A stretch of 35,870 bases of DNA, taken from contig SVRR01000019.1 in the NCBI GenBank assembly GCA_015064745.1, forward strand, positions 1 through 35,870, written 5' to 3'. Below, in pieces: positions 33,894-35,870 of this stretch. This stretch comes from Oscillospiraceae bacterium. GTDB lineage: Bacteria; Bacillota; Clostridia; Oscillospirales; CAG-272. The notes below the pieces were generated by a model. The model made no database searches, was not told the origin of the DNA, and saw only the letters and a list, made by a program, of their open reading frames with translations. How positions within the stretch are numbered: position 1 is the stretch's first letter; every line of letters starts with the position of its first letter. Position numbers and translations under genes: made by a program.

Positions 33894-34118
33894 GATTTAG
33901 CCAAATAAACTGAATATTTGTCAGTAGAACCTCTCCCTTTGCTTCAAAGGCCTTTTTTCGTACGTCTATCACACTGAATTTGATAAAAATGCAAATTCCC
34001 ATGTGGTAGGTGTGTACATATCTTCTACTGACAGTTTGTTTGGCGACAATCGGGGCTTGCGTTTTTTGTGCGACGGCTTCGGTCATCGCACTTTTTGCCT
34101 TATCATCGGGAGGTATGT
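33894..34118 (+). ncRNA. Long structured 5' leader of the LRR protein gene, or embedded MITE-like element
   Basis: The leader holds a perfect 11-bp inverted repeat, TGTCAGTAGAA at 33919-33929 and TTCTACTGACA at 34023-34033, enclosing 93 bp. Inside are CCTTTG-ctt-CAAAGG (33936-33950) followed by six T residues, which looks like an attenuator terminator, and a long irregular hairpin (about 33960-34018). That hairpin is built from GAATTTG/CAAATTC plus CTATCACA/TGTGGTAG. The remaining bases to the ATG are unstructured and end in GGGAGG. No known riboswitch class was recognised. Confidence 0.55.
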
Positions 34119-35870
34119 ATGAAAAAGAAAATTTTACTGTTCGCCGCTCTTCTCGTGGCATGTCTTTCCCTTGTGGGACTTTTGACCGTTGCCTCCTCGG
34201 CAGCAACGGAGGGGTATTACACCTACACGGTATCGAACGGCGAAGCCACCATCACGGACGTAACCACAGGTATTTCGGGCAATGTCACCATTCCCTCCAA
34301 TTTAGGAGGCTATCCTGTCACAAGCATCGGCTCTTATGCCTTCTCGAATTGCGCGGGCTTGACGTCGATCACTATCCTCGATAGTGTAACGAGCATCGGC
34401 TTGGCTGCCTTCTCGGATTGCACGGGCTTGACATCTGTCACCTTTGGCGAAAATAGCAAGTTGACGAGCATCGGCTATCGGGCATTCTATAATTGCACGG
34501 GCTTGACATCAATCACCATCCCCGATAGTGTAACGAGCATCGGCTCTGATGCCTTCCGGGGTTGCACGGGCTTGACGTCGATCACCATCCCCGATAGTGT
34601 AACGAGCATCGACTCTAATGCCTTCTGGGGTTGCACGGGCTTGACGTCGATCACCATCCCCGATAGTGTGACGAGCATCGGCTCTTGGGCCTTCTCGGGT
34701 TGCACGGGACTGACTTCAATCACCATCCCCGATAGTGTAACGAGCATCGGCTCTTGGGCCTTCTATAATTGCACGGGCTTGACGTCGATCACCATCCCCG
34801 ATAGTGTAACGAGCATCGGCAATTCTGCCTTCTCTAATACCGGGTATTATAACAACTCGTCTAATTGGGAAAACGGCGTTCTTTATATAGGAAAGCATTT
34901 GATCAAAGCAAAGAATACGCTCTCGGGTGCGTATTCTATTAAAGAAGGAACGCTTTGCATCGGCGATGATGCCTTCTATAATTGCACGAGCCTTACGTCG
35001 ATCACCATCCCCGATAGTGTAACGAGCATCGGCTCTTCTGCCTTCTATTATTGCACGGGCTTGACGTCTGTCACCTTTGGCGAAAATAGCAAGTTGACGC
35101 GCATCGGCGATTATGCCTTCCGGGGTTGCACGGGCTTGACATCGATCACCATCCCCGACAGTGTAACGAGCATCGGCGATTATGCCTTCTCGGGTTGCAC
35201 GGGCTTGACGTCGATCACCATCCCCGATAGTGTAACGAGCATCGGCTATTCTGCCTTCTCGGGTTGCACGGGTCTCACCTCCATCACGGTTAAAAATGGA
35301 AATAGCAATTATCACAGTGTGGGCAATTGCCTGATCGAAACGAAAAGCAAAACATTGATTGCGGGATGCAAAAACAGCATCATTCCGAGCGACGGCAGTG
35401 TGACGAGCATCGGCTATTATGCCTTCACGGGTTGCACGGGCTTGACGTCCATCACCATCCCCGATAGTGTAACGAGCATCGGCTATTATGCCTTCTATAA
35501 TTGCACGGTCTTGACGTCGATCACCATCCCCCATAGTGTAACGAGCATCGGCTCTTCTGCCTTCTCTAATACCGGGTATTATAACAACTCGTCTAATTGG
35601 AAAAACGGCGTTCTTTATATAGGAAAGCATTTGATCGAAGCAAAGAATACGCTCTCGGGTGCGTATTCTATTAAAGAAGGAACGCTTTGCATCGGCTCTT
35701 CTGCCTTCTCGGGTTGCACGGGCTTGACGTCGATCACCATCCCCGATAGTGTGACCAGCATCGGCGAGGGTGCCTTCTATGATTGCACGGGCTTGACATC
35801 GATCACCATCCCCGATAGTGTGACCAGCATCGGCTCTTCTGCCTTCGAGGGTTGCACGGGCTTGACATCT
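34119..35870 (+). CDS. BspA-like leucine-rich-repeat surface protein (3' end outside window)
   Basis: Open from the ATG at 34119 to the window end (584 codons, no stop), with GGGAGG 5 bp before the start. A signal peptide (about 1-30: MKKK, hydrophobic core, then ASSA-A) targets it for export. A short domain (about 31-68) follows, then LRR_5/BspA-type repeats of 23 residues with the core TSIGxxAFxxCTGLTSITIPDSV. I count 19 units. Some are interrupted by TFGENSKL variants, a SxxYHSVGNCLIETKSKTLIAGCK segment and two copies of an NGVLYIGKHLI block. Such repeats form a solenoid and in other bacteria mediate adhesion to host proteins or cells. Anchoring domains would lie beyond the window. Variable residues are almost only S, Y, D, N, W, G and R. 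Confidence 0.93.
   Translation, partial: MKKKILLFAALLVACLSLVGLLTVASSAATEGYYTYTVSNGEATITDVTTGISGNVTIPSNLGGYPVTSIGSYAFSNCAGLTSITILDSVTSIGLAAFSDCTGLTSVTFGENSKLTSIGYRAFYNCTGLTSITIPDSVTSIGSDAFRGCTGLTSITIPDSVTSIDSNAFWGCTGLTSITIPDSVTSIGSWAFSGCTGLTSITIPDSVTSIGSWAFYNCTGLTSITIPDSVTSIGNSAFSNTGYYNNSSNWENGVLYIGKHLIKAKNTLSGAYSIKEGTLCIGDDAFYNCTSLTSITIPDSVTSIGSSAFYYCTGLTSVTFGENSKLTRIGDYAFRGCTGLTSITIPDSVTSIGDYAFSGCTGLTSITIPDSVTSIGYSAFSGCTGLTSITVKNGNSNYHSVGNCLIETKSKTLIAGCKNSIIPSDGSVTSIGYYAFTGCTGLTSITIPDSVTSIGYYAFYNCTVLTSITIPHSVTSIGSSAFSNTGYYNNSSNWKNGVLYIGKHLIEAKNTLSGAYSIKEGTLCIGSSAFSGCTGLTSITIPDSVTSIGEGAFYDCTGLTSITIPDSVTSIGSSAFEGCTGLTS
34827..34964 (+). repeat. 138-bp block, copy 1 (second copy at 35559-35696)
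   Basis: The stretch from AFSNTGYYNNSSNW to GTLCIG recurs 732 bp downstream. By eye, the two copies differ at two bases only: GAA/AAA after TGG, and AAA/GAA after TTGATC. Each changes Glu to Lys or Lys to Glu. Confidence 0.9.
35559..35696 (+). repeat. 138-bp block, copy 2
   Basis: Direct repeat of 34827-34964, 244 codons further on and in frame. The charge pattern is reversed relative to copy 1 (WKNG and LIEAK here, WENG and LIKAK there). It suggests a multi-repeat segment was duplicated as a whole. Confidence 0.9.

Follow-up and report, generated by a model that had tools for sequence, protein, structure and literature searches.

In the array of LRR units that closes the analysed stretch of DNA, four codons per unit are hypervariable and almost all else is constant, and this is probably the outcome of concerted evolution of the repeats together with diversifying selection at the four codons, with the rule that governs their third bases as a by-product. 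The third base of a variable codon is set by the column in which it stands, omega (dN/dS) is well above 1 only at variable columns, the backbone of the repeats evolves in concert, and such arrays occur across the genus. The stretch, called the window here, is the whole of contig C18 (35,870 bases) of an Oscillospiraceae genome assembled into 1.70 Mb and 41 contigs (89.9% complete), and the array reaches the contig end. This genome is labelled G000, contig C11 also belongs to it, and other G-numbers denote other genomes of the genus.

In the explanation that we prefer, the gene would belong to a gut bacterium and encode a BspA-type LRR protein that is secreted; the tandem units of this protein would be amplified and exchanged, which would keep the backbone nearly constant. 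The four xx residues of IGxxAFxxC would be under diversifying selection at the amino-acid level, and the third base of each variable column would be an inherited one (T for columns 1, 2 and 4, either T or G for column 3). Changes from T to C, being silent, would be unfavoured and about as rare as at fixed codons. Purine third bases would enter with the residues that need them, as in GAG, TGG and TTG in the window gene and GAA, AAA, AGG and CAG in relatives, and the G-ended codons of four-fold boxes (TCG, CGG, ACG and GGG; 13 of 96) would descend from such residue-required purine codons. The third-base rule would thus follow from the inherited base of the column and the selection on residues. 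The variable residues are presumably exposed, and the protein is presumably secreted with a role in binding. Because of its signal-like start and its many driven residues, the product is most likely a binder, that is, a putative adhesin, receptor or decoy.

The gene and its repeat array

Table 1. Features at the 3' end of the window.
Feature	Position	Strand	Remarks
Structured leader RNA	33898..34066	+	between the upstream permease gene and the BspA-type gene; from folding, covariation and model search
BspA-type LRR gene, 5' part, 584 codons	34119..35870	+	open at the contig end
Putative signal peptide MKKKILLFAALLVACLSLVGLLTVASSAA	34119..34205	+	from the translation alone, without a predictor
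LRR array, 19 cores ATC GGC xxx xxx GCC TTC xxx xxx TGC	34326..35870	+	xxx, hypervariable sites
Insert block copy A, 39 codons, between two cores	34842..34958	+	from sequence comparison
Insert block copy B	35574..35690	+	compared with copy A over 39 codons, 2 amino-acid-changing and 0 silent differences

The product of the gene reached 472.7 bits against the Pfam LRR_5 profile (curated cut-off 27.7) and matched the solved TpLRR structures 6mlx (E 1.9e-26) and 4fs7 (E 6.5e-67); judged by its sequence, it is a BspA-type (LRR_5) LRR protein. From the first core to the contig end, the array holds 18 cores of the form IGxxAFxx and one IDxxAFxx, often spaced by 69 bases.

Contig C11 begins inside an array with the units and the insert of the window, five units of which lie there, and its product continues with the end of the array, a dockerin type I domain (Dockerin_1, 27.3 bits) and a Flg_new repeat below the cut-off. 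Since the units and the insert recur at the start of C11, and since a paralogue that lies in one frame (G004:C107) has a domain plan like that of C18 and C11 combined, C11 is probably the 3' part of the window gene. The dockerin thus sits in a region (L227; G000:C11:1-8000) that is likely part of the same gene. Cohesin partners for it, as membership in a cellulosome-type system would call for, gave no match in 6 of 6 genomes.

On the minus strand, an in-phase antisense frame over the array is open for 384 codons (window 34716-35870), because codons ending in T, G or C are read on the opposite strand as codons starting with A, C or G, which are never stops.

Third bases of the variable codons

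The preliminary description had counted 76 variable codons in 19 units, all ending in T or G, among fixed codons that mostly end in C. Both counts hold: none of the 76 ends in C or A, and the fixed codons of the cores are C-ended in 99%. The 20 variable codons of the five C11 units likewise all end in T or G. Over these 24 units (19 in the window and 5 on C11), C-ended codons make up 0 of 96 variable codons, while 47.2 are expected from the codon usage of the genome (246 genes with 101,385 codons in total, taken from the window and 20 further stretches of G000) and 49.5 when the next-base context is included. The nominal log10 P for the absence of C is -29.5, a value that assumes independent codons, which they are not. 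For D, N, Y, S, G and H, the variable sites of the window gene use C over T in 0 of 59 codons, compared with 43 of 85 at the other positions of the units and 22 of 45 in the gene beyond the units. Genome codon bias, which predicts about half C-ended codons, was therefore rejected as the source of the T/G endings, as was next-base context. None of the other LRR_5 genes examined follows the T/G rule.

Among the 69 genomes of the genus, arrays with the core of the window are also found in G004 and G024, where third-base A is present at variable codons too (GAA, AGA, TTA, CGA). In a strict count of units, C-ended variable codons are found in 0 of 40 cases in G004 and 0 of 32 in G024, and a looser unit pattern gives 1 of 36 in G024. 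In G008, columns 1, 2 and 4 are T-ended with one C in 117 codons, whereas column 3 is C-ended in 24 of 39. For example, the counts of TAT and TAC for Tyr in G008 are 25 and 0 over columns 1, 2 and 4, and 1 and 9 in column 3. Third bases are mixed in column 3 of the array G005:C42. A Ruminococcaceae array (L042) has GAT/AGT with T in 14 of 14 codons in column 1 and GGC with C in 15 of 16 in column 4, and its column 2 departs from the majority third base in 5 of 15. Arrays from other taxa vary at the xx sites as well, and the other genes of the genus include some with T enriched at the variable sites and some that are C-rich there.

The statement that all variable codons have the form NNT or NNG is therefore correct for the window and C11 and fails in the relatives, with A in G004 and G024 and C in column 3 of G008; a strict NNK rule was rejected for the same reasons. 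Since relatives use A and column 3 of G008 uses C, the rule comes nearer to a single third base that each column has inherited and that depends mostly on the column and hardly on the residue. First and second bases at the variable sites are highly diverse, and the third is nearly fixed per column.

In order to compare silent change at variable and fixed codons, T/C departures from the majority third base were counted in columns with the same majority base. In a set of 25 arrays (19 stretches chosen through a match to a T-ended core pattern), T-majority columns depart in 8.2% of variable (95 of 1152) and 12.7% of fixed codons (106 of 833), and C-majority columns in 20.6% (14 of 68) and 14.7% (383 of 2597), respectively. 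In 34 arrays of the genus, mostly gathered without the T-ended pattern and partly overlapping the first set, the values are 13.2% (81 of 613) and 23.0% (177 of 769) for T-majority columns and 23.8% (103 of 433) and 15.7% (252 of 1608) for C-majority columns. Arrays of other taxa gave 102 of 403 variable and 121 of 389 fixed codons for T columns, and 422 of 2071 and 634 of 4115 for C columns. The window itself has departures in 0 of 60 variable, 0 of 91 core fixed and 3 of 106 tail fixed codons. Across arrays, silent differences at variable and core fixed sites are correlated (rho 0.56; 68 of 115 arrays with enough data). Silent change at variable third positions is thus roughly within twofold of that at fixed positions with matched bases. 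There remains an extra T preference at the variable sites of 1.4- to 1.7-fold, for which the preferred explanation does not account. A universal lock on T was considered from an unmatched comparison, in which columns 1, 2 and 4 were about three times more conserved than fixed columns (49 of 962 vs 512 of 3543), and was rejected, as matching by majority base leaves a T preference of less than twofold.

Selection on the codons themselves, with T-ended codons preferred for translation speed, mRNA structure or recombination control, could produce such a preference, though we regard it as unlikely. It agrees with the findings that several genes of the genus are enriched in T at the variable positions and that, relative to fixed columns, T-majority variable columns keep their base better and C-majority ones worse. 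It also agrees with the pattern matches in the genus, where the T-ended core pattern is matched 227 times across 32 of 69 genomes (five arrays went into the selection model) and the C-ended pattern 48 matches in 33 of 69, the reversed patterns used as controls giving 3 and 15 matches, respectively. However, a general preference for T fits poorly with a third column that has C endings in G008 and mixed endings in G005:C42 and with other genus genes that are C-rich at the same sites; next-base context gives no prediction, and the size of the effect stays below twofold.

Purine third bases were also counted. In split boxes, where a purine changes the residue, purines outnumber the other pyrimidine 72 to 6 (seven arrays from six genomes of the genus), and for the window alone the count is 6 to 0. 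Four-fold boxes, in which purines are silent as well, give 29 to 7; because the two excesses do not differ significantly (Fisher P 0.11), the 72 to 6 ratio is weaker evidence for selection than it appears. Of the G-ended variable codons in the window, 10 of 16 lie in four-fold boxes and are thus silent. Outside the genus, the ratio of purines in split boxes to the other pyrimidine in all boxes is weaker (8:6, 2:1 and 6:2). It had been proposed that mutation may be confined to the first two codon positions, an idea that finds no support here because third-base A and G arise where they change the residue, a test that is not decisive alone.

Selection and exchange among the units

Omega was estimated with our own codon-likelihood script on a tree built from the fixed codons only. 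The first run covered five arrays from four genomes (G000, G005 with two arrays, G008 and G011) and used units with the standard tail only, 16 of 24 for G000 and 27 of 37, 58 of 79, 16 of 23 and 25 of 32 for the other arrays. Across the five arrays, omega of the fixed codons lies between 0.15 and 0.30 and that of the variable codons between 3.6 and 9.6, with 2dlnL of 79 to 154 under a shared silent rate and 18 to 58 when the variable codons have their own rate. These omega figures are rough, because recombination between units violates the assumption of a single tree. In the own-rate fit, omega ran to very large values with a silent rate near zero for G000 (both runs) and G005:C27.

A column-wise run used 19 of 24 units of G000 and 62 of 79 of G005:C42. 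In the G000 gene, the four variable columns have omega of 10, 10, 16 and 6 (2dlnL 25, 33, 41 and 22), and none of the other 19 columns of the unit is significantly above 1 in this column-wise codon model. In G005:C42, the variable columns have omega of 2.5, 4, 10 and 1.5, the last of which is not significant. The earlier observation that diversity is limited to four codons per unit is thus matched by the selection results, these being the only columns of the window gene significantly above omega 1. A small number of positions per unit, the four columns, with dN/dS well above 1 is also what characterizes the regime of the fungal HNWD repeats.

As controls, six arrays from other taxa (L108, L063, L073, L021, L042 and L050, with 20, 26, 8, 10, 14 and 14 units) were fitted. 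Under the shared rate, their variable sites have omega of 1.0 to 4, with five of the six exceeding 1 (2dlnL 5.6 to 40); in the own-rate fit, only L042 stays significantly above 1.

The repeat shuffling proposed in the preliminary description is supported by two lines of evidence, namely near-identical inserts that carry different variable codons at their sides and fixed codons that cluster by array. The three copies of the 39-codon insert, two in the window and one on C11, differ by 1 to 3 amino-acid-changing and 0 silent differences, while the cores that flank them differ in up to 5 of 8 variable codons (5 of 8 for copy A vs copy B). At copy B the tail codons differ too, as though a whole unit had been swapped. 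Tail values from this comparison, some of whose columns are out of register behind the inserts, were set aside. When units from 12 groups were compared by fixed codons, 81% of 150 units have their nearest neighbour in their own array, compared with 40% by variable codons and 11 to 15% with shuffled labels. The fraction by fixed codons is 0.91 for G000, and small groups are low (G004:C18, 0.33 with 6 units; G001, 0.25 with 4; G005:C30, 0.0 with 3). Repeats from the same gene therefore resemble one another more closely than those from different genes.

The orthologous array of a sister species, G004:C18, lies behind six syntenic genes with 79 to 98% amino-acid identity. Its 10 units share 0 four-codon combinations with the 24 units of G000 (23 distinct), and single pairs recur. 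Between G000 and G004, identity is 45 to 61% at flanking four-fold sites, 71% in the array tails and 99% at core silent sites; the last value rests on five columns, and we count it against the preferred explanation, which does not account for it.

Reverse transcriptases, known systems and a genus-wide repertoire

The genome with the most T-ended pattern matches is G005. The largest array observed, with 79 cores in one frame of 3,060 residues, belongs to a BspA gene inside a 74 kb contig of this genome (G005:C42:33000-43500, L316).

The window had been described as holding no reverse transcriptase (RT) or template repeat, and neither was found when the search was widened to the whole of G000. 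RVT_1 has no match in G000 (89.9% complete) or in G004, G008, G011, G022 and G024, all of which have such arrays; as the genomes are 75 to 94% complete, absence from any one of them is no proof. A backbone-exact search of G000 for a template repeat gave 17 matches, all within the C18 and C11 arrays, and a looser core pattern gave 4 further places, 2 of them in another LRR gene. G005 holds an RVT_1 protein, and the 12 kb surrounding its gene contain nothing core-like. In total, RVT_1 was found in 11 of 69 genomes, 6 of which also carry T-type units, and about 5 are expected. No core-like sequence was found in 6 to 12 kb around eight RTs of the genus. A DGR was rejected, given the lack of RVT_1 matches in G000 and five relatives and of a template repeat in G000.

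A further RT lies in G001:C18 (L338:4164-5297), in a genome with three T-ended pattern matches. Its motifs are, we assume, DGR-like, and the 9.5 kb around it hold no LRR core-like sequence.

Targeted hypermutation, in which a DGR or another machine rewrites bases 1 and 2 of the codons from an AAT-like template, is on these results improbable, and more so than codon-level selection. It would suit the high diversity of the first two bases next to a third that is nearly fixed per column, the presence of T-type units in 32 of 69 genomes, and the RVT_1 protein of G005, the genome richest in such units. However, six array-bearing genomes have no RVT_1 match, the overlap of RT-bearing and T-type genomes is close to the expected number, the backbone-exact matches of G000 stay inside the arrays, the surroundings of the eight RTs hold nothing core-like, and third bases also turn to A or G.

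Two further explanations have hardly any probability. The first, in which codon usage and the copying of a single founder unit suffice and the residues are unselected, draws on the fact that the units are copies, so that their codons are no independent trials, and is already contradicted by the half share of C-ended codons that codon usage predicts and by omega well above 1 at exactly four columns. A short-read assembly artefact that mixes strains or paralogues within the repeat would agree with arrays at contig ends in G000, G004 and G024 and with a passage in PMC12222747 that reports short-read assemblies of comparable fungal repeats as unreliable, but the 79-core array inside its 74 kb contig behaves alike, and because the unit has 69 bases, codon content is safer than the order or number of units.

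With concerted repeats under selection at four codons as the preferred explanation, the closest known regime is that of the fungal HNWD (het-d/het-e) repeats. These WD40 repeats have high internal conservation (PMC1805685, PMC4986451, PMC12222747) and evolve in concert, and positive diversifying selection acts on four of their codons, arranged as two pairs (PMC1805685). Similar units, exchange of units and four diversified codons in two pairs are common to HNWD and the window array. HNWD proteins are intracellular NLR sensors of fungi that have a beta-propeller and whose repeats are about 85% identical, whereas the window array belongs to a bacterial LRR protein with 74% mean residue identity (17 units), in which no signalling domain was seen. 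In the PRDM9 zinc-finger coding minisatellite, unit diversity is mostly non-synonymous at three binding codons (PMC3890296); PRDM9 is a vertebrate DNA-binding protein and the window gene encodes a bacterial protein, but both are coding repeats with driven codons.

BspA/TpLRR proteins (Pfam LRR_5; PDB 6mlx, 4fs7, 4gt6) form the same repeat family with the IGxxAFxxC signature. The xx sites vary in BspA arrays of other taxa as well, with omega significantly above 1 in one of six controls under their own rate. Among the papers listed in a search of the open-licence PMC literature, none was found that reports codon-level diversification of BspA repeats. DGRs resemble the window array in that variation is limited to chosen codons and the third base is mostly kept. 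However, DGR targets have one variable region, while here many units are variable and neither an RT nor a template repeat was found in G000.

A wider reading, which we offer tentatively and hold to be possible rather than probable, is that this genus of gut Clostridia has a repertoire of secreted LRR receptors or adhesins diversified at four codons per unit by repeat exchange and strong selection and perhaps co-regulated, which would be a bacterial counterpart of the fungal non-self recognition repeats. Apart from this wider reading, the results point, in uncultured gut bacteria, to an evolutionary design shared with fungal allorecognition and PRDM9, with near-constant repeats and few driven codons. 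They also supply a gene list for a ligand search, account for a codon pattern reminiscent of a designed library, and offer a candidate RNA regulator ahead of such genes. The repertoire may be a co-regulated surface-recognition system because several of the genes sit behind the same leader RNA.

This leader RNA is a candidate for a new, apparently undescribed class of structured RNA. It is about 170-190 nt long and consists of a closing stem (GCCAAAC/GTTTGGC), a core hairpin (GAATTTG-ATAAAAATG-CAAATTC) within a helix of variable sequence, and a tail (GGCGACAATCGGAGTTTGCGTTTT). The fold has a z of -6.5 (166 bases), and 21 copies folded singly range from -4.4 to -10.4, with -4.4 for a longer piece from the window. 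Changes on both sides of a pair were found in 9 of 11 cases in the closing stem and 0 of 7 in the core hairpin, and the covariation score of the whole element is above all 500 shuffles. Rfam gave no match at gathering scores and only a chance-level match below them. Within the genus, a model of the leader has matches in 49 of 69 genomes, at up to 13 places per genome, and across the order in 87 of 295 sampled genomes (56 of 148 genera), where many of the matches are weak. A scan of 50 leader loci, some of which overlap, yielded a downstream frame in 33 cases. With loose patterns, which let some unlikely cases pass, 27 of these frames are classed as beginning like secreted proteins or lipoproteins and 8 as holding LRR units.
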